A DNA stretch of 64,000 bases from Methanosarcina sp. 2.H.T.1A.6 (GCF_000979455.1 NZ_JJOY01000052.1:40001-104000), one strand, 5' to 3'; positions 42,438 to 54,885 are shown, counted from the stretch's first letter. Program-made: numbers and translations. Notes: generated by a model not told the origin, from the letters alone.

Positions 42438-43535
42438 ATGGAAGATTCTTCGTCAGTTGTAGATAAAAGTACTCTAACAACCCCCTCAGATGTAAGTGCA
42501 GTACCAATTTCATTAGAAGATAATACTCTAGCAGATAATCCAACAGTTAGTACTCCCGCACCCCCACAAAAACTAAAGTTTTCAAATTTACCCCGAAAAG
42601 TAGCTTATTTTATATTAGGCTCAATTTTTATATTTATGGGCTTGAGCATGTTGTCACAGAGTTTGATAGGGGGAAGTTTCGTTTGCATTTCAATTGCAAT
42701 TATTATTTTTAAATATGAAGTTAGCACTCTAATAGCCCCTGCAAAACCAAAATTTTCACACGTTGTCCTGTATATAACTTATTTTATAGTAGCATCGATT
42801 AGTTTAATCTTTGGGTTATTGATCACAGTAAGCTTGCCGGTAGCAGGCATATTTTTCCTCTTGATGACAATTATATTTTTAAATTTTGCTTTTTTATGGA
42901 ATCCCGAAGAACAAATAATTCGTTCAAAGGTCGCCTGGAAGAATTTGTTGAAAACTTCAGAAAAAAGGTCAGAACAAAAAAGACCGGAAAGAAACAGATT
43001 AACAGATATAAATGTAGCTAAGATAGATGGGCGGCAAGGGTACGAATTAGAAGGTTTTCTAAAGACTATTCTTAAAAGTTTAGGATATTTATGGAAGAAT
43101 TTGTTGAAAGCTTTAGAAAAAAGGGCAGAACAAAAAAGATTAAAAAGAAACAGATTAACTGATATAAATGTAATATTAGCTCAGATAGATGGGATGGAAG
43201 GATATGAGTTTGAAGTGTTTATGGAACATGTTTGTGAACAGTTGGGATATTCAGTCTATCGTACTAAATCATCAGGTGATCAAGGTGCAGATCTTATTCT
43301 AACATCAAAAAACAGAATAAAAACCGCTGTCCAGATCAAACGATACTCGGGTAAGGTCTCAAATGGTGCAGTACAGGAAGTTGTAGCTTCAAAAGGTTTT
43401 TATAAATGTACAGAGGGTATGGTAGTTACAAATAGTTATTTTACAAATTCTGCCAAACAATTAGCTGAAGCCAATGATATTGATTTAATTGACAGAGATG
43501 AACTTATAAAAATGATTAAGAAGGTATATCACTAA
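42438..43535 (+). CDS. Membrane-anchored Mrr-like endonuclease
   Basis: 365 aa. After a Ser/Thr-rich start there are four membrane helices (about residues 54-70, 72-90, 110-130, 135-155). Then a linker contains an internal duplication of about 50 residues (WKNLLK...EKR-EQKR..RNRLTDIN twice). The C-terminal 125 residues are a restriction-endonuclease Mrr/RecB-like domain: YEFEVFMEHVCEQLGY, SGDQGADLIL (catalytic Asp), VQIKRYSGKVSNGAVQEVV (QIK in place of E-x-K, usual in Mrr), and GMVVTNSYFTNSAKQLA. Mrr enzymes cut modified DNA. It lies alone between two 353-bp direct repeats, so it looks like a mobile cargo cassette. A RBS-like GAGG lies just upstream of the ATG. Confidence 0.85.
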   Translation: MEDSSSVVDKSTLTTPSDVSAVPISLEDNTLADNPTVSTPAPPQKLKFSNLPRKVAYFILGSIFIFMGLSMLSQSLIGGSFVCISIAIIIFKYEVSTLIAPAKPKFSHVVLYITYFIVASISLIFGLLITVSLPVAGIFFLLMTIIFLNFAFLWNPEEQIIRSKVAWKNLLKTSEKRSEQKRPERNRLTDINVAKIDGRQGYELEGFLKTILKSLGYLWKNLLKALEKRAEQKRLKRNRLTDINVILAQIDGMEGYEFEVFMEHVCEQLGYSVYRTKSSGDQGADLILTSKNRIKTAVQIKRYSGKVSNGAVQEVVASKGFYKCTEGMVVTNSYFTNSAKQLAEANDIDLIDRDELIKMIKKVYH

Positions 43536-45895: not shown

Positions 45896-46153
45896 TTATG
45901 CTCTTTCTCTTTTGAATATCAGGTTTAAGGCTATCAAGAAGCTGGAAACGAATATTATAGCGATTACTGCCGTATTTGTTGGGCTGCTTATACCTGAAAA
46001 ATTATTGATAAAAGGACTGGTAATAGAATAAGCAGCATTACTGGCGGAATAAGTCCTTGTATACAGTCCGTAGTAAGCCGACTCCAGAAGTACTGCTATA
46101 AGCGAGATTAAAACTGCTATAATAAAACTGCGTATTATAATGTCAAGTTTCAT
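45896..46153 (-). CDS. Small two-helix membrane protein
   Basis: 85 aa from ATG 46153 (a TTG at 46159 is possible). Two hydrophobic helices (IIIRSFIIAVLISLIAVLL and TAVIAIIFVSSFLIALNLIF) flank a Ser/Tyr/Asn-rich loop, ending in a positive FKRERA tail. Family unknown. It lies 210 bp downstream of the tubulin-GTPase operon on the same strand but is separated from it by a gap with no obvious coupling. Confidence 0.6.
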   Translation of the reverse strand: MKLDIIIRSFIIAVLISLIAVLLESAYYGLYTRTYSASNAAYSITSPFINNFSGISSPTNTAVIAIIFVSSFLIALNLIFKRERA

Positions 46154-46370
46154 TTTCAATCATCTTTTAGAAACAGTGGTATAAAATATTAACATAATAT
46201 AAACTGGAACAGGGTATCGATTTTAGATGAATTAATCGAAATAAGAGGAAGACTTGTGGTACAAAATCGATAGCTTTCAGGCAAGAATATTCCTTAACCG
46301 ATAAACGATGAATTTACTTTCATGCCCCCTCATCTGTTTCGTTTATTTATTTATGTATTTATTTATATAT

Positions 46371-48080
46371 TTAGTTATTTATCATTCCTGCTTTTTGATC
46401 ATCCTCGGAGATTATAGCATACTCTAAACTATTTATGGATTTATTATCATATACTGCATTCAAATATTCAAGAAATGTAGACGTATTTTTGATACTGGTG
46501 TCTGAGGAATTGTTCTCTCCTTCATTTCCCGTTGAATGGATATAACATACGAATAAATAAGACATAAGAATAATCATAACCAAAGCGACAGCACAAAAAA
46601 CTGTTTTGATATTTTTGTTTCTTTTCCTTTTTTTCATCCTAATTTTTGAATCCAGGTAGTGTCTGTCCAGAATATAATCCAGGTTTTCAGTATCTTCATC
46701 GCTTAGTTCCAAAATAAAGTTGTTATTGCCTTTATAATCAACAAGATCTTTTATCAGGCTTTCGAGAAGGATTTTTCCCTCAGCTTTTGGCTTTGAAGGC
46801 GATTCACTGGCAATAAATTTTAAAAAATTAACCTTGTCTGAATATTCTAAGTCGTTTAGTGCTTTTTTAACCCCTTTCTCAAAAGAATTGTACTTAGAAC
46901 CTCCTCTGGAATTATGTGCCCATTCACCTAAAGAATTTTGAGGGAAATTCTCCCGTGAAGTCTTATTAAAGAGCAAATTGAACAAATCTTTGTTATGTTT
47001 TTTATGTATAGTTAGTACAAGATCCGCAATGAGAGATTCAATAAATATATTTCGAGAAAGTAATATTTTATAAAAATCTTTCCTACATTCTGACGATTCA
47101 ATTTTGTGTGAGATATTTATGAAAACTTTTCCAATAGTAGGATCATTTACATCAGTGGTTTTTTGCACCAATCCCTTAAATATTTCAACTTTATATGTAT
47201 CATCAAACTCGTCTAAAAAGGAATTAGAAGAAATATAATAATCGGATGGTGAACTTAATATCTTTCTTACAACAGGGCTTACGGAATCTGATATAGTTTG
47301 ACTTCCTTTTGAATAAGAAGCTTCATCTTTAAAGAATTCTTCACCCAATTCTTTAAAGGAATTCCATGACCCCGCTTTAGTAAATTCTAGGAACGTTCCG
47401 TTTTCTCCGATCTCAAAATCCGGATTTGGTTTGATGAGACTAACAGAAACGTTAGATTCTGATGGATATTGAGAAACATCAAAAATAAATGTAAATCTGC
47501 GCCTTAATATGGAAATTAATTTAAGGATAAAGGAAAGCCCACTACTGAGTTCCGAAATCTTTACAGATACTTTTATGTTAGAACGAATCTTGCCTGCTGT
47601 GTATTCAAAAACTTCTTTTTCGATAGGGACCTCTTTAATATTTCTAAAATCCCCTTCCTCCCAAAATCCAACTAGCTTATATTTCTTCACGTCGAGATTT
47701 TCTACCTCAAATTTAACCCTCTCATAGAACTGCTTTAATAACTGAATATCAGAAACAATCTCGTTCTGTAATGGTAAATTTTTGTAGACCTGGATGAATA
47801 CGACTCTTTCTTCTCTTCCATTCTCAGCCTTTACACTCAAACTGCACCCAAAAATGAGTTCATTCTCTTTTGATTCCAAGTAAAAAGCACTTCTTTTTGT
47901 ATCAAGCTGCGTTGCCAGTTCAGTGTATTGTTCAAAAAGTGTATTGCCTTTTAATAGCTGGCCCGTTGAATTATATATTCCATAATCCGAGTTATGGCTG
48001 ACATTGGAGAGGGGGAAAAAAGCAAAGCTCTCTAGAGCTTGATCACGGTGATTAGAAACTGAATTTCCCAATTTCTCCAA
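46371..48080 (-). CDS. C-terminally membrane-anchored protein of the tubulin-GTPase operon
   Basis: 569 aa. TTG at 48080 or, with GGAGG at good spacing, TTG at 48071; both lie inside the end of the preceding gene (up to 29-bp overlap). No ATG is available. The large soluble part (about 1-490) is alternating alpha/beta and helical without any catalytic motif I know. A Lys/Arg-rich stretch (RMKKRKRNKNIK) precedes a single TM helix (TVFCAVALVMIILMSYLFVCY) near residue 510 and a short Ser/Asn-rich end. The bulk is thus likely cytosolic. Position beside a GTPase suggests an adaptor or GTPase-associated factor; this is inferred from context. Confidence 0.75.
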   Translation of the reverse strand: MEKLGNSVSNHRDQALESFAFFPLSNVSHNSDYGIYNSTGQLLKGNTLFEQYTELATQLDTKRSAFYLESKENELIFGCSLSVKAENGREERVVFIQVYKNLPLQNEIVSDIQLLKQFYERVKFEVENLDVKKYKLVGFWEEGDFRNIKEVPIEKEVFEYTAGKIRSNIKVSVKISELSSGLSFILKLISILRRRFTFIFDVSQYPSESNVSVSLIKPNPDFEIGENGTFLEFTKAGSWNSFKELGEEFFKDEASYSKGSQTISDSVSPVVRKILSSPSDYYISSNSFLDEFDDTYKVEIFKGLVQKTTDVNDPTIGKVFINISHKIESSECRKDFYKILLSRNIFIESLIADLVLTIHKKHNKDLFNLLFNKTSRENFPQNSLGEWAHNSRGGSKYNSFEKGVKKALNDLEYSDKVNFLKFIASESPSKPKAEGKILLESLIKDLVDYKGNNNFILELSDEDTENLDYILDRHYLDSKIRMKKRKRNKNIKTVFCAVALVMIILMSYLFVCYIHSTGNEGENNSSDTSIKNTSTFLEYLNAVYDNKSINSLEYAIISEDDQKAGMINN

Positions 48081-49506
48081 CCCTCCATGGATTTATTTTT
48101 GGATATTCCCGCTGCATTTCCGGATTCTCACTTTCCATAGTGAGAGGTTTCATGGTTGCATCCACACTGACCGTGTACATGTAGATCGGCATTTGATATG
48201 CCATATTTACAATTTCCTTGAATGTGGTAATCTCGCAGAACAGATCATATATTTCATGCTCTATATCCCTGGCTTCTTTTGAATCCTCCATAATCTTGGA
48301 AAGATCCTTAAACATGTCAGTCTTGGTCACCACAATCGCATACGATTTCTCATTCCCGAATATATTGATGATATTTGAATAGTGACCGAAGAGTTGTGTC
48401 AAATTTGTTTTGCCACCATTATGATAGTCAACGATATGATCTCCATCTACCAGGAAAATGATTTTCCCTGCACTTTCAAATCTTTTATATACATGGACAA
48501 AAGTGACTTTCTCTACAGCCTCTGCAAATTCATTTTTATGATTATCTCGCAGATTTTTTATGAAATCTATATTTCCCATATTCTGTTCCAGTGTGGGAAC
48601 GTCTATATTGAAACGTGTATTGAGTTCTGCAATTGTTGTCCCATACTGCGTCGGGTCAAAATTTTTTGTATGTTCGCCCCCGTAGTCGACAAATGTCATC
48701 CCTACAGGTTTAACTCCTTTTTTGCCTGATAACAAATATATTGCAAGATCTGTCCGGAGGTTGCTTCTTGGAAGTTCTCCCTTCTCTATATCTGCAAGCA
48801 TATTTTCAATCTTTAAACTTTCTTTGTTTTTTTCCGACACGATAATTTCTTTTCTCTGGCCCCCCAAAACAGTTACAAACTGATTGTAGAATGCAAGCAG
48901 TAACAATGTTTTTCCGGATCTTGAAGGCCCATACACAAATACATCATAAGCCTTTATACCGCGAATTGTCTTCGTCAGAAGGAAAGAAAATGTAAATAAA
49001 ATTCCTATCAAAATCATAAAGTCAAAAAGCTCGTTTGAACCACTTGACATGAACTCCGGTTCTTGAGAAGACCACATAATCTTAATCAAAGCCAGGATTA
49101 GATACAATAAGGTAAATACAACAAAAATCATGATGAATCGACGTAAATACATTGCAAGCCTGTCAAAGCGATTATTATAATAGGAATAAAAACTTAAGCA
49201 TCCACCTTCCAACATTCCAAACACAAATCCGTCAATACGTAAAAACCCGCTTACGTAAAAGACGTACACAAACGGCAAGAACACTGCAAGTAAGAAAATT
49301 CCCCCGATTCTGGAGCGAAACTCGAGAATCATCCCAATTGCACTGAAAATAAAGGATGCGACGAAAAAGCTGAAAGTGAGTTTTATGTACCATCCCGTAT
49401 CTGATAGCCAGTAGGGCATACTCATATATAAAAAAATAAGGGATAGGAGAACCCCCAATAAAACCAAAATGATTTCAAAAATCGTATGAGTTCTACTTAT
49501 TTTCAA
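48052..49506 (-). CDS. Polytopic membrane P-loop GTPase
   Basis: 484 aa. Five to six membrane helices fill residues 9-180. A P-loop domain follows: Walker A G193-PSRSGKT200, switch II-like DYGG (274-277) in MTFVDYGGEHT, strand IIFLVDGDH (349-357), and a TKTD guanine-specificity motif (394-397) in IVVTKTDMF. This order (GxxxxGKT, DxxG, [NT]KxD) is that of TRAFAC-type GTPases such as the membrane double-GTPase (DO-GTPase) groups associated with prokaryotic conflict systems. It overlaps the upstream tubulin-like gene by 14 bp, so the two are coupled. Polar membrane-linked GTPase signalling with the tubulin-like partner is the likely job. Confidence 0.82.
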   Translation of the reverse strand: MKISRTHTIFEIILVLLGVLLSLIFLYMSMPYWLSDTGWYIKLTFSFFVASFIFSAIGMILEFRSRIGGIFLLAVFLPFVYVFYVSGFLRIDGFVFGMLEGGCLSFYSYYNNRFDRLAMYLRRFIMIFVVFTLLYLILALIKIMWSSQEPEFMSSGSNELFDFMILIGILFTFSFLLTKTIRGIKAYDVFVYGPSRSGKTLLLLAFYNQFVTVLGGQRKEIIVSEKNKESLKIENMLADIEKGELPRSNLRTDLAIYLLSGKKGVKPVGMTFVDYGGEHTKNFDPTQYGTTIAELNTRFNIDVPTLEQNMGNIDFIKNLRDNHKNEFAEAVEKVTFVHVYKRFESAGKIIFLVDGDHIVDYHNGGKTNLTQLFGHYSNIINIFGNEKSYAIVVTKTDMFKDLSKIMEDSKEARDIEHEIYDLFCEITTFKEIVNMAYQMPIYMYTVSVDATMKPLTMESENPEMQREYPKINPWRVGEIGKFSF

Positions 49507-52500
49507 GCTTCAAGGCCTCCTTTAATGACTTTGTTTTGTAAAGGCTCTTGATCTCCTGGGGAATTTCCTCTATCCTTTCATTATTTGCAATCTTTCCTGC
49601 TGCTTCCGAACTTAAGAGGACGTTTCGAGTTATGTACTCTCCATCCTGAAGTTTCAGTACATGGTGCAGTATATTTTCCTTATTCCTTGCATAAATTTCC
49701 CAGTAACCTCCTCCGGCTACCAGGGGATAAATGTTGTCAAGAAAACTTGATGCGGCAAAAAAGGTCAGAGCAATCTCCCAGGGTTTTGTATGTCCATGAG
49801 GAGTAAGCAGGGAATCATTAGGTTTTTTCAAAGACAGGCTCTGATTGATATCCACGCTGATCATGCTTTTCATGAGCTCAGAACGTACATATCCGGAAGT
49901 TGATGATACAACTAAAGCAGCTTTTCCAAAAGTCCACCTTTCGGTATCGCCAATTGAAACTTTTAAAGAATTTACACCGAGTTTTCTACTTTCAAACAAA
50001 TCCTGATATGTAGATTTTGCGAGGTTTATGAGTTTATCAAGTTCTAATTTCCCGTTTTTGTCCATGTCAAGGTTGCCCATATCAGGACTGGCATTTGTAT
50101 CAGACCTGCCTTCCACAAGAGATAGTATCTGGGGGTTGACACTTCCAAATTTAGTTTTGTATATGCCTTTTTTCGTCCGTTTTCCGGCTTCTATTTTTTT
50201 ACTGATAATCTCAAAATGTTCATGGAAATACTCATAATGCAGATTGAAATTTTTTCGGCTTGAAAATGTTTCCGTGTTGGTGGCATCGACTTTAACAAGC
50301 ATATCATACTGCAGTTGCTTTTCTTCTATTTCTCCATTTATATCTTTAATATATTTATTTAACTCTTCCATACTATAGAAGTAATTAGCAGCTTCTAAAT
50401 GGAGTTCTGTCAGATTTTCTCGCAAAGACTGCCTGATTTTTACCCTGTCATCGGATGCAAATATTTTGTCAAGTTTTTCACTGTCTATATTATTTGTATT
50501 TAGATCTGCAAATATAGAATTACAGATCCTTTCTCGAAGTACTTCAACCTTTTTAATTAAATCGACAGTTAAAAAATTATCCGGAATTACGATGTTAAAG
50601 GGTGTGTCGATATGAATCGCCCAGTATTTCATATTTGATTTGATATAATCTTCTTCTTTCCCGGCATGTTCTTTATATTTTTTTATGAGTTGCTTTCTCT
50701 TCCCCAATATAAGTGCACGCAAGCCGCCCTTTTCAACTTCTTTTACCTTATATTTATAAAAATAATAACTGGTAACGGAATCAATAAACCTGCTTAAGCT
50801 TTCAAGATCACATTCGTTCTCTTTTGAGATAGCCTCAATTTCCATTCTAATATCTTTAGTGCCAGCAGATAAAAACCAGCTATTTTTATCGTTCCCTCGA
50901 ACTTTCCCGATGCTCAATTTCTCTATATATCGATCTAATGTTTCTTTCAATTTTTGTTCATTATCCGGGAGGTATTTGATATTCCGGTTGAGTTTTGCAT
51001 AGGACTCAAGGTCAAGATCAATATCATTTAATTTATCTTTGATCTTTTTATCGACCTCAATGGGCAGAGAATTTAGCTCGGCCATTTTCTGCTCGGTCGG
51101 CTTCAGCTTTGTGTTCAGAGTTTGGATTTCCTGACTCTTGGCGTTCAGTGCTCCAAGAAGAGGAGAGATATCCTTTTTCCCTTTCAGGATATTAATCATT
51201 ACAGACCTGCAATCTTCATTCTCAACCGCTGCAACCCGTTTGAATAAACTTGCATTTTTTTCAAGAGTCTCGAGAGCTTCTGGAATCAAACGGAATAATT
51301 TTTTATCGATTTCATCTTTGAGTTTCTCCTGTGCAACACCTTGAGCAAAATTATTAACTCGTGAAATATAGGATGTCAGGTCATTATAAGTTCCAATCTT
51401 TTCAAATTGAATCTCTGAAATGTTATATTTAATAAATTCCTCTATTTGTTCCACGCTGTGATAATTAAGCAGTTTTGCGATGTTGTTTGTCCACACTTTT
51501 TCAATATTTCTATACTCAGTTTTTATGAACTCAAAGACTTCCATCGTTGGAGTGGCTTCTCCACTGATGTTGAACTTAATAAGGAGACTTTCAATAATCT
51601 CGTTTACATTTTTCCTGACAGCATCGATTTCTTCCAGTTCATGAATAATCTGGCTGTACTGCTCCTTTAATTCCCTGAGCTCTTCTACGGGGTATTCGAT
51701 CACATGCGAATCGGCAAATATAAAAGAAGAATAGGATTTTCTTGCGTCACTAAGGTTAAGATCACTTCTCTCTATATGGAAGAAGTTAGTGAGAATCTGC
51801 GGGAAGACAGAATCAAATTCATCCACTTCTTCTAGCTCATACTGTCCGTTGGTATACTCCGTGGGACCTAGAGATGTAAATATTACATGATCGAAAAGTC
51901 TCTCGTCGTGAGACACGTTTAAGTATTCAAGCTCTGTAAGAGAAATGGCAGCATTAAGCTGTTCTTTTTCTCCTTCTTTTGTTGTTGGAAGCACTGCAAA
52001 GAGATAGATTGCATCATCCCGTTTTTCCTTGATATATCTTGCAAGGTCTATGAACATGCCTGAGCCAGTACCTCCCCCGATCCCTACTATGATGGCTGTG
52101 ACTCCCGGATTCGAAAAGGTCGGAAACCCATTTGCTTGTCCTTCACTCAAAACTTTATACAAAATAGCTTTTGAAACAGCTCTTCTGCGATGCACACCAC
52201 CCCCGAAATCATCCATGATGAAGTGATCAATACGTTTCAAGTCCTGGAAAGTAACTCCATTGTTTTCGGGATCATTCAACCACCACGTTTTGATTGAGCG
52301 GGATCTTTTTATGCTTGCTGAAACTTCAGCGCTGGTTAAATCGGACACATGTGTAATATTTGCAAGGTTTGGTAGATAGTAGGACTTAAATTCGATGTTC
52401 CCCGCTCCCTCCAAATTATCCACTTTCTCCATGATTTTTGTTTCCCACCGCTGATCCTCTGCAGATTCATTGGCGTCCGTATCCATCGTATAAATCTTAA

Positions 52501-52648
52501 GCCTGTTCACATCATTGGAGTAATAGTGGAGTAACCAATCGTAATTGCATATTTCACGAGCAAGTTTTTTTCCGCATCCACCCACACCCACAATTGTTAG
52601 ATTTGGAGGATACTTAAAAGATTGACTTGAGTCATCTACCCTTTTCAT
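49493..52648 (-). CDS. Large tubulin/FtsZ-superfamily GTPase (Tubulin_2-like)
   Basis: 1051 aa. The N-terminal region has the FtsZ/tubulin nucleotide motifs: T1-like TIVGVGGCGKKLAREI (G21-G26), T2-like YTMDTDANE (55-59), and the signature GIGGGTGSGMF (tubulin G-box GGGTGSG at 191-197). About 300-800 is long helical and coiled-coil sequence, rich in Lys/Glu, absent from FtsZ and CetZ. The C-terminal part (TPHGHTKPWEIALTFFAASSF) is conserved-looking but unknown. This length and layout resemble the Tubulin_2 family, whose role is not settled. It overlaps the preceding gene by 4 bp (ATGA) and the next by 14 bp. It probably polymerises or forms a GTP switch at the membrane with its neighbours. Confidence 0.82.
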   Translation of the reverse strand: MKRVDDSSQSFKYPPNLTIVGVGGCGKKLAREICNYDWLLHYYSNDVNRLKIYTMDTDANESAEDQRWETKIMEKVDNLEGAGNIEFKSYYLPNLANITHVSDLTSAEVSASIKRSRSIKTWWLNDPENNGVTFQDLKRIDHFIMDDFGGGVHRRRAVSKAILYKVLSEGQANGFPTFSNPGVTAIIVGIGGGTGSGMFIDLARYIKEKRDDAIYLFAVLPTTKEGEKEQLNAAISLTELEYLNVSHDERLFDHVIFTSLGPTEYTNGQYELEEVDEFDSVFPQILTNFFHIERSDLNLSDARKSYSSFIFADSHVIEYPVEELRELKEQYSQIIHELEEIDAVRKNVNEIIESLLIKFNISGEATPTMEVFEFIKTEYRNIEKVWTNNIAKLLNYHSVEQIEEFIKYNISEIQFEKIGTYNDLTSYISRVNNFAQGVAQEKLKDEIDKKLFRLIPEALETLEKNASLFKRVAAVENEDCRSVMINILKGKKDISPLLGALNAKSQEIQTLNTKLKPTEQKMAELNSLPIEVDKKIKDKLNDIDLDLESYAKLNRNIKYLPDNEQKLKETLDRYIEKLSIGKVRGNDKNSWFLSAGTKDIRMEIEAISKENECDLESLSRFIDSVTSYYFYKYKVKEVEKGGLRALILGKRKQLIKKYKEHAGKEEDYIKSNMKYWAIHIDTPFNIVIPDNFLTVDLIKKVEVLRERICNSIFADLNTNNIDSEKLDKIFASDDRVKIRQSLRENLTELHLEAANYFYSMEELNKYIKDINGEIEEKQLQYDMLVKVDATNTETFSSRKNFNLHYEYFHEHFEIISKKIEAGKRTKKGIYKTKFGSVNPQILSLVEGRSDTNASPDMGNLDMDKNGKLELDKLINLAKSTYQDLFESRKLGVNSLKVSIGDTERWTFGKAALVVSSTSGYVRSELMKSMISVDINQSLSLKKPNDSLLTPHGHTKPWEIALTFFAASSFLDNIYPLVAGGGYWEIYARNKENILHHVLKLQDGEYITRNVLLSSEAAGKIANNERIEEIPQEIKSLYKTKSLKEALKLENK

Positions 52649-53403
52649 TCGGTATCTTCTCCTACATCGATGTCATCCTTAGAATTGAACCTCACACCAA
52701 TTAAAAAACCGAGCAGAAGGCCTATAATTGTGCCTGGAATGAGCCACCAGTATGAAGGCCATTTATCATTTTCAGTCAAATGATCAGCGAGTGTTTTTGA
52801 TTCCTTAACAAGCCCTTTATCATGCAGATCCTGCAGATATTTTTTAAAAAAGGGATCATCGATTTGATTTATCTGTTCTCTGAATGATTCAACTTCCGGT
52901 ATTGAAATTTCGAAGGGACGGGTTTCCACGCTTTCGATCAGATTTCCTTTACTGTTTGTAAGTGTTATTCTGTCATAAGCGTAGCCCGTACTTTGTTTAT
53001 ATGTTACAAGTGTTACTCCATCATACTGTTTCTTATTGGTGATTTGTGGGATTTGTCCATTAATAGTAACAATAATTGATGTTGTGCTTTCATTAACTGG
53101 AAAATCAAATTTGTTAGCATCACTTGTAAAGTTCAAATTTGTGAAATTATATAAATGGAAATCATCAACTTTAACCAGATCAGTGTCAAAAGAGATATAA
53201 TCTGCAGCTGGTGGGATATTATTTATTGTTAATGTGTAACTTATTACCTGTCCCTCTAAAACTTTGTCTGGTGTTTGACCATTGATCTCAATGTTTGTTG
53301 CTGATACCGTACTTGCAAGAAGTAAAAGTAAGAACAGTGATAAAAATAAGTAGTTTACACCCTTGAATGATTTCATTTTTTTATTACACCACCGCTTTAA
53401 CAT
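52645..53403 (-). CDS. Secreted-domain, single-pass membrane protein heading the tubulin-GTPase operon
   Basis: 252 aa (start ATG 53403; ATG 53376, MKSFKGVNYLFLSL, fits the signal peptide better). The signal peptide ends near ASTVSA. The external part is a beta-sandwich-like domain (KVLEGQVISYTLTINNIP; SIIVTINGQIP) with N-glycosylation sequons, followed by a stretch rich in charged helix and a TM helix (WWLIPGTIIGLLLGFLIGV). A short acidic tail (DDIDVGEDTE) is cytosolic. It could be the external sensor or anchor of the operon. The stop overlaps the tubulin-like start by ATGA, showing tight coupling. Confidence 0.82.
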   Translation of the reverse strand: MLKRWCNKKMKSFKGVNYLFLSLFLLLLLASTVSATNIEINGQTPDKVLEGQVISYTLTINNIPPAADYISFDTDLVKVDDFHLYNFTNLNFTSDANKFDFPVNESTTSIIVTINGQIPQITNKKQYDGVTLVTYKQSTGYAYDRITLTNSKGNLIESVETRPFEISIPEVESFREQINQIDDPFFKKYLQDLHDKGLVKESKTLADHLTENDKWPSYWWLIPGTIIGLLLGFLIGVRFNSKDDIDVGEDTE

Positions 53404-54170
53404 TATTTAACGATACCCTCTTTGTTAAATAGTTTATACTACATATGATTTTTTAATTAAACAGCTATTTAATACCATTTAACTATACCATTATTCATTT
53501 ATTCATTTATAGTCGACGTAGAAAATATTTACACATATAAGCAAGAACGATAACTGTAAGTTCAACATTGAGAAATACAGTTAATTTTTGAGTTGAATAT
53601 AATTTCTCAGTTGGCCATAATTAAAGCGAAAAGATAAACCACTGAAAGCACGGAAAACACGGACTGAAGGAAACACGGGCACAGAGAATTCCTTACTCTC
53701 CGTGGTTATAGAGTCTGGATAGAGTTTTTCCATGCCCATCGGTGTTTTTGATTATAGAGTTTGAATTATAGTGTTTAACAGTGTATTTAATTTGTGTGTT
53801 GACTATAAATAGTTTACACTATTGAAGGACTTTTTACTACCCCACTGTTTTAACATTATTTAACTATACCATCATTAATTTGTATTGGATTTCACTCAAC
53901 ATTCCGCAGATGTTCTCAAGAAAATAACATTTCTCTTACTATCTTTTTTGGCATTACTCTAAAATCCGTAATTATCTTTATCTCATAGGGTCTTCAAAAA
54001 ATTCATCAAAAATTTTTATGTTTCTTACAGATACATTTTTTGCGTTTAATTAACAGGTGAGATTTTGCAGTCCTAATTTGCACCAGAAATTCGAGTTGAA
54101 GCCATAGTTTCGCTTCAGTTGTGGTTTAAACAAAGTGTTGAACTATTCACTTTAAATGAAAAAACAATAA
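53404..54170. promoter_or_regulatory. Promoter region of the tubulin-GTPase operon and MITE debris
   Basis: On the minus strand a TATA-like AGTATAAAC (about 53430-53440) lies about 30 bp before ATG 53403, implying a very short leader. About 430 bp further (53833-53870) the first 10 codons and their upstream ATTATTTAAC occur again (MLKQWGSKKS versus MLKRWCNKKM), so the gene start was partially duplicated. A MITE left part (53902-53985) follows. Confidence 0.55.
53902..53985 (+). repeat. MITE-like element, left end only
   Basis: TTCCGCAGATGTTCTCAAG and following sequence match the left end of 44661-44904 and 19571-19746, with more changes, so it is an older copy. Confidence 0.65.
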
Positions 54171-54180
54171 ATTGATCTTC

Positions 54181-54885
54181 ATGAAAATTCATGTCCTCCA
54201 GCACTCCGCCCTTAACACCCTCGGCACAATCGAAGAATACGCCAGAACTAACAACCACCCCCTTGAGTCAACCCGCTTTTATAAAATCACAAATCCGCCT
54301 TCGCTTGAATCTTTTGACCTGCTTGTCATTATGGGCGGTCCTATGGGAATCTATGATTACGAAGAAAACCCCTGGCTAAGAGACGAAAAAGCCTTCATAA
54401 AACAGGCAATCGAAGCAGGAAAGCCAGTTCTCGGTATCTGCCTCGGTGCCCAGTTACTTGCCGATGTACTCGGCGCGCGCGTATATGAAAACGGGCACAA
54501 GGAAATGGGCTGGTTCCCTGTAAAGTTGGTCCGGACGGAGGAAAATGAACCTGAATTTCTCAAAGGGCTGCCGGAAAAGATAACGGTTTTTCACTGGCAC
54601 TTAAGAACCTTTGACCTTCCAGCCGGGGCTGTGCATCTTTTCCGGAGCGAGGGATGTAAAAATCAGGGTTTTATTCATAACGGCAGGGTTGTAGCTCTCC
54701 AGTTTCATCCCGAAGCTACGGATGAAAGGATTAAAACCATGATAGGAAAGTCTGGTCCTATAATTGAAAACGGGCAGTTTATCCAGAAAAAAGAAGAGAT
54801 GCTCGGACAGAAAGAGTATCTGGCTGAGACAAAGAAATTCATGTTTAAAGTGCTGGACAGGTTCGAAAAAATTATGCACTCTTAA
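54181..54885 (+). CDS. Class I glutamine amidotransferase-like protein
   Basis: 234 aa from ATG 54181 (MKIHVLQHSALNTLG); the frame begins at TTG 54172 but the ATG fits the family start. GMP-synthase-like GATase fold: LLVIMGGPMGIYDYEENPWL, nucleophile Cys in VLGICLGAQLLADVLG, and the catalytic His and Glu in VALQFHPEATDER. Stand-alone members hydrolyse glutamine or gamma-glutamyl bonds; the partner is unknown and no synthase domain is present. The C-terminal 60 residues are a helical extension. Monocistronic. Confidence 0.88.
   Translation: MKIHVLQHSALNTLGTIEEYARTNNHPLESTRFYKITNPPSLESFDLLVIMGGPMGIYDYEENPWLRDEKAFIKQAIEAGKPVLGICLGAQLLADVLGARVYENGHKEMGWFPVKLVRTEENEPEFLKGLPEKITVFHWHLRTFDLPAGAVHLFRSEGCKNQGFIHNGRVVALQFHPEATDERIKTMIGKSGPIIENGQFIQKKEEMLGQKEYLAETKKFMFKVLDRFEKIMHS

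Follow-up and report, generated by a model that had tools for sequence, protein, structure and literature searches.

The closest described relatives of the system examined here are the FtsZ-like-1 (FtsZl1) operons of Makarova and Koonin (2010, PMC2875224), a family that already included a member from M. acetivorans. In that study the P-loop GTPase neighbors of FtsZl1 were said to be membrane-associated in archaea, a vWA-domain protein was found in the majority of the operons, and membrane remodelling was proposed as their role; filament formation was doubted for a T7-type reason, and a reviewer of the paper questioned the membrane-bending idea and suggested transport or signalling instead. A conflict function was later proposed for bacterial tubulin-bearing DO-GTPase systems by Kaur et al. 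(2020, PMC7159879), with Hsp70, GrpE, and vWA as themes. In the literature searched, we found no experimental study of any FtsZl1 protein or operon. Pairs of a small GTPase with a longin/roadblock protein are exemplified by MglA-MglB and Rag-GATOR1.

Here we characterize a four-gene operon (Table 1) in a 64,000-nucleotide stretch of Methanosarcina sp. 2.H.T.1A.6 DNA (NZ_JJOY01000052.1:40001-104000; hereafter the window), which had been read from sequence as one translational unit encoding an external anchored protein (A), a tubulin-like GTPase (B), a membrane GTPase (C), and a tail-anchored protein (D). The coordinates confirm overlaps of 4, 14, and 29 bp at the A/B, B/C, and C/D junctions; identical or similar overlaps are seen again in relatives, a recurrence not expected by chance, which supports the single unit. 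C and D would use TTG as their start codon, and the true start of A may be an ATG nine codons further in (at 53376, giving 243 aa), since most homologues begin with MKSF or MKL. The operon span had been started at 45896, which takes in a neighboring 87-aa ORF (45896-46159) that does not belong to the system: we rejected it as a fifth operon gene because it is present in 28 of 31 genus members, many of them operon-less, and the empty site between the flanking genes of operon-less relatives likewise identifies it as a neighbor. A sigma-70-type promoter scan upstream of the operon, with a model unsuited to archaea, gave nothing above chance.

Table 1. Genes and mapped features of the operon (window coordinates)
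Feature	Position	Strand	Description
Gene A	52645..53403	-	252 aa, secreted/membrane-anchored surface protein: signal peptide and ~180-aa external domain, then one TM segment and a short acidic tail inside
Gene B	49493..52648	-	1051 aa, FtsZl1/Tubulin_2: N-terminal GTP-binding domain, helical/coiled-coil ~320-820, C-terminal alpha/beta domain
B T4 loop GGGTGSG	52058..52078	-	residues 191-197
Gene C	48052..49506	-	484 aa, polytopic membrane GTPase, DO-GTPase2-like
C G1/P-loop GPSRSGKT	48907..48930	-	residues 193-200
C G3 DYGG	48676..48687	-	residues 274-277
C G4 TKTD	48316..48327	-	residues 394-397
Gene D	46371..48080	-	569 aa: cytosolic alpha/beta N-domain, helical middle, C-terminal TM anchor, short external N/S-rich tail
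D N-domain first unit, beta-beta-alpha-beta-beta-beta-alpha	47700..47990	-	residues 31-127; weak structural resemblance to longin domains; G40 and R89 near-invariant
D transmembrane anchor	46545..46601	-	residues 494-512

Pfam comparison assigns B to Tubulin_2 (PF13809; 45.5 bits, cut-off 27, E 8e-12), with a further match to Tubulin (PF00091) at 36.5 bits (cut-off 33). The tubulin/FtsZ G-box with T1- and T2-like motifs, first noticed in the 1051-aa protein itself, is conserved in homologues, among which the T1 (VGGCGKK), T2 (DTD), T4, and T5 (TxEG) loops are kept. An AlphaFold model of B, built from 24 sequences (mean pLDDT 77), places an alpha/beta part on either side of the long helical stretch, and Foldseek matches it at a probability of 1.00 to CetZ2, TubZ, CetZ1, tubulin, and FtsZ; the best match is CetZ2 (4b45) with an E-value of 3.5e-5, which, like all our structure-search E-values, comes from a predicted model rather than a solved structure, and the TM-scores normalised to the target are ≤0.5. 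The structure-prediction check proposed for this protein therefore came out in favor of a tubulin fold, which B is predicted to have. B shares this predicted fold and the GTP-binding loops with CetZ, TubZ, and FtsZ, but differs from them in its ~500-residue helical insert and in the T7-like NxD motif, which we looked for among the homologues and did not find conserved. Because conservation of this catalytic motif is not seen, GTP hydrolysis by B is probably not quite FtsZ-like. The above-cut-off Tubulin_2 match, the GGGTG(S/T)G loop, the unrecognisable T6-H7/T7 region, and the succession of FtsZ-like N-domain, coiled coil, and C-terminal domain are all features of FtsZl1 (PMC2875224), and B has the same length as Huta_2051. 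No B was found in phages or viral contigs. One metagenome-assembled genome, ERenArc_MAG2, carries three B copies on separate contigs (L033, L034, L036) that are 94% identical to the query, and these may be strains mixed in the assembly.

The GTPase motifs that had marked C as a polytopic P-loop GTPase are preceded by ~5 hydrophobic segments; 21 homologues conserve G1, G3, and G4, and C also has a G5-like SVDA motif, G5 being kept in most of them. C thus supplies the diverged P-loop GTPase of FtsZl1 multicomponent systems. Its own match to DO-GTPase2 (14.1 bits) lies below the cut-off of 27; all 21 homologues match this family, the best at E 1.8e-6. The resemblance of C to the DO-GTPases of Kaur et al. 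is new relative to the earlier FtsZl1 description, although C differs from those proteins by its N-terminal polytopic membrane domain.

The topology of A, C, and D was read from hydropathy alone. In D, one transmembrane segment is preceded by a +7 flank and followed by a 57-aa tail carrying N-x-S/T sites; together, the three membrane proteins show consistent inside/outside signs, in agreement with the earlier proposal that the partners flanking the two GTPases place one domain outside the cell and another at the inner face. Neither D nor its N-domain matches a Pfam family, yet the N-domain can be recognised in proteins encoded after C in divergent relatives, haloarchaea among them; its two near-invariant residues come from an alignment of these relatives. 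Conservation of the first residues of D (KLxNSAS) may reflect the overlapping C-terminus of C. The strand and helix order of the N-domain is predicted at a pLDDT of ~84-94, and its top PDB match is TagF, reported to be longin-like (PMC3325213), with DENND10, SEA complex, and GATOR1 chains lower. All of these matches are weak (best E 0.025, probability 0.75, TM <0.3), and sequence profiles give no support for a longin domain in D. Since every structural E-value exceeds 0.02 and PAS-like folds are mixed in, we treat a longin-like N-domain that regulates C as a lead and not a finding. The domain itself, with its near-invariant arginine and its place beside C, is a new observation and weakly longin-like in the predicted model. 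By analogy, a GTPase with an adjacent, possibly longin-like partner recalls MglA-MglB and Rag-GATOR1; the likeness goes no further than analogy, since D has a weak fold match and the sequence of C does not place it in the Ras/Rag family.

D was also considered as a GAP1 protein and rejected: it has no GAP1 match in Pfam, hhalign against three GAP1 proteins, with a thin profile, gave a probability below 1%, and GAP1-N2 was not found in the same genome. Nor did D, considered as a virus-like protein, give a convincing match. At one locus (L041:13030-15495) D is 821 aa long with its N-domain duplicated in tandem, and at two others small proteins of 173-180 aa follow C where D is absent (L124:10938-11459, L125:11257-11799); the one compared with Pfam has no match.

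Gene A agrees with its earlier description as an external anchored protein, having a signal peptide, an external domain without a Pfam family above cut-off, one transmembrane segment, and a mostly acidic inner tail. Haloarchaea are among the lineages that lack A, and the external partners differ by lineage, with PEGA, CARDB, and PQQ propeller domains represented, a variability that fits a surface role. In several loci of f27 and its relations (L128-L141), the gene after D encodes a surface protein with a PEGA domain or of similar type. Degenerate direct repeats of the leader region lie upstream of A (window 53378-53423, 53450-53495, and 53831-53876) and occur also in L152 (G073); they look like duplicated starts of A.

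Conservation of gene order elsewhere, on which the sequence-only reading had been made to depend, was examined at 59 archaeal loci from several families of one phylum (some redundant, since loci overlap between searches). All four genes occur together, in the order A-B-C-D, at 43 of these loci; A precedes B in 50, C follows B in 55, and D follows C in 50. At four f26 loci, no D was detected downstream of C. Pairwise divergences of A, B, C, and the D N-domain correlate with r of 0.92-0.97 across 36-44 loci, and none of 500 permutations reached as high a value; as a sequence-level signal this shows co-inheritance rather than contact. One locus (L091, 6692-9776) holds a C-D pair close to the window type without A or B, in a genome without full-length B, so C and D form a unit. 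Among the genomes listed, full-length B is present in 9 of 11 in f27 and 6 of 8 in f26.

Within Methanosarcina, the operon lies between the 87-aa gene and an amidotransferase gene (54172-54885). In several operon-less relatives (e.g., G061, G083, G115, G077, G478, G129, G105, G124, and G480) these flanking genes are ~0.2-1.0 kb apart and blastn detects no operon sequence in the gap, whereas in the window, G073, G118, and G479 they are separated by a gap of ~8 kb that holds the operon. Because the operon-less relatives have this compact empty site, the operon is dispensable in nature. The window and G118 are as similar in B as in the flanking amidotransferase (74% each), which fits repeated loss from common descent, with gain at one site as the alternative. 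A second B type, ~49% identical, occurs in different surroundings in other Methanosarcina, and some of these genomes also have the compact site. In G133 (L158, L159) transposase-like ORFs separate the operon from the amidotransferase gene and part of the 87-aa gene lies beyond the operon's other end, an arrangement that by sequence is a rearranged version of the insertion site. The other strand encodes, ~2.8 kb from the operon, a Mrr-type restriction nuclease that has hydrophobic segments at its N-terminus (window 42438-43535). Among 96 flanking proteins, 25 PADLOC models found matches (1-3 members each); these matches, which have no background rate to be set against, are not counted for defence. 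The MADS defence models mad3, mad6, and mad8 each matched one flanking protein.

The operon as a whole can be set against both described groups. It shares a P-loop GTPase neighbor with the FtsZl1 operons (PMC2875224), but their vWA, OmpA, and protein kinase genes are absent from A-D; no VWA match was found in the window ORFs scanned, and of 18 D homologues a single one gave a VWA match, a weak one (E 0.022). With the DO-GTPase/GAP1 systems (PMC7159879) it has in common a DO-GTPase2 match that is weak yet universal among the C homologues compared, a tubulin gene, a large dedicated protein directly after the GTPase, and extracellular modules; GAP1 homology in D, an FNIII/GASH protein, and an effector were, unlike there, not detected in the operon. 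For want of these three hallmarks we do not file it with the DO-GTPase conflict systems, although its mode of action may be similar. The suggested link to Tubulin_2 and double-GTPase families holds at the family level for B and C, but GAP1, by which double-GTPase conflict systems are defined, was not detected in D. The remark that this exact set has no described function stands for the literature searched and needs the qualification that FtsZl1 with archaeal membrane GTPases had already been described (PMC2875224).

Our best explanation, held tentatively and at slightly below even confidence, is that the four genes specify a cytoskeletal accessory of the FtsZl1 kind that is tethered to the membrane, a GTPase switch from the surface to the cytoskeleton. 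A would face the surface with its short tail inside, C would be the membrane GTPase switch, and D its dedicated inner-face partner, probably regulating GTP hydrolysis or exchange through the longin-like domain. An external cue, received via A and the external tail of D, would set the nucleotide state of C, and this state would let B, the GTP-binding tubulin relative, assemble at the inner membrane face or release under C-D control, with local envelope rearrangement as the result. The physical contacts, the regulation of C by D, the assembly of B, and the output are the parts of this model that we infer. An envelope-linked switch is favored by the regular presence in f26 and f27, the lineage-variable surface partners, and an operon in which no effector was found. 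A bolder proposal, to which we give a low probability, is that a longin-domain D serves as GAP or exchange partner of a DO-type C, the pair using input from A to gate assembly of B, a giant coiled-coil tubulin; if true, this would place a tubulin under small-GTPase-style control in a prokaryotic transmembrane signalling machine.

Conflict with viruses or other elements is a serious competitor, although we consider it somewhat unlikely: A or D would sense infection at the envelope, C would act as a threshold switch, and a B multimer would block or kill. B and C are members of, or similar to, families used in the DO-GTPase/tubulin systems (PMC7159879), haloarchaeal plasmid relatives adjoin Hsp70, GrpE, and vWA genes, presence in Methanosarcina is patchy with a clean empty site, a Mrr-type nuclease gene lies ~3 kb away, and some flanks match PADLOC models. 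On the other hand, A-D themselves have no PADLOC match, most of the flank matches look like generic kinases, the operon yielded no effector such as a nuclease, TIR, or protease, GAP1 is not detectable, and B is too regular in f27 and f26 for a typical defence island. Of the earlier proposal of a membrane machine or a conflict/defence system, the single unit, the tubulin fold, the polytopic GTPase, the topology, and the gene order are upheld, and GAP1 was looked for in D without being detected. Direct vesicle formation or membrane remodelling, in which B polymers, driven by C, would curve the membrane or act as its scaffold, continues the 2010 proposal for the family and suits membrane-bound C and D and the tubulin fold of B; we rate it decidedly unlikely, given that the operon proteins carry no sequence sign of membrane bending and that the idea was questioned at review. 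A DNA-segregation module like TubZR is very improbable: B has TubZ as one of its top structural matches and some relatives are plasmid-borne, but no DNA-binding adaptor is seen in the operon, three of its proteins are membrane proteins, and the loci are mostly chromosomal. FtsZl1 proteins occur widely among bacteria and archaea, and the present operon is compact, complete, and dispensable; since Methanosarcina is genetically manipulable, the 2010 (membrane remodelling) and 2020 (conflict) proposals can be tested against each other.

In plasmids searched by tblastn, bacterial GAP1 gave no match, and a DO-GTPase query found two Rhodococcus plasmids. Two archaeal loci (L087, L088) encode Hsp70-like proteins together with DO-GTPase2 and GAP1-N2, and are candidate GAP1-type systems in archaea.
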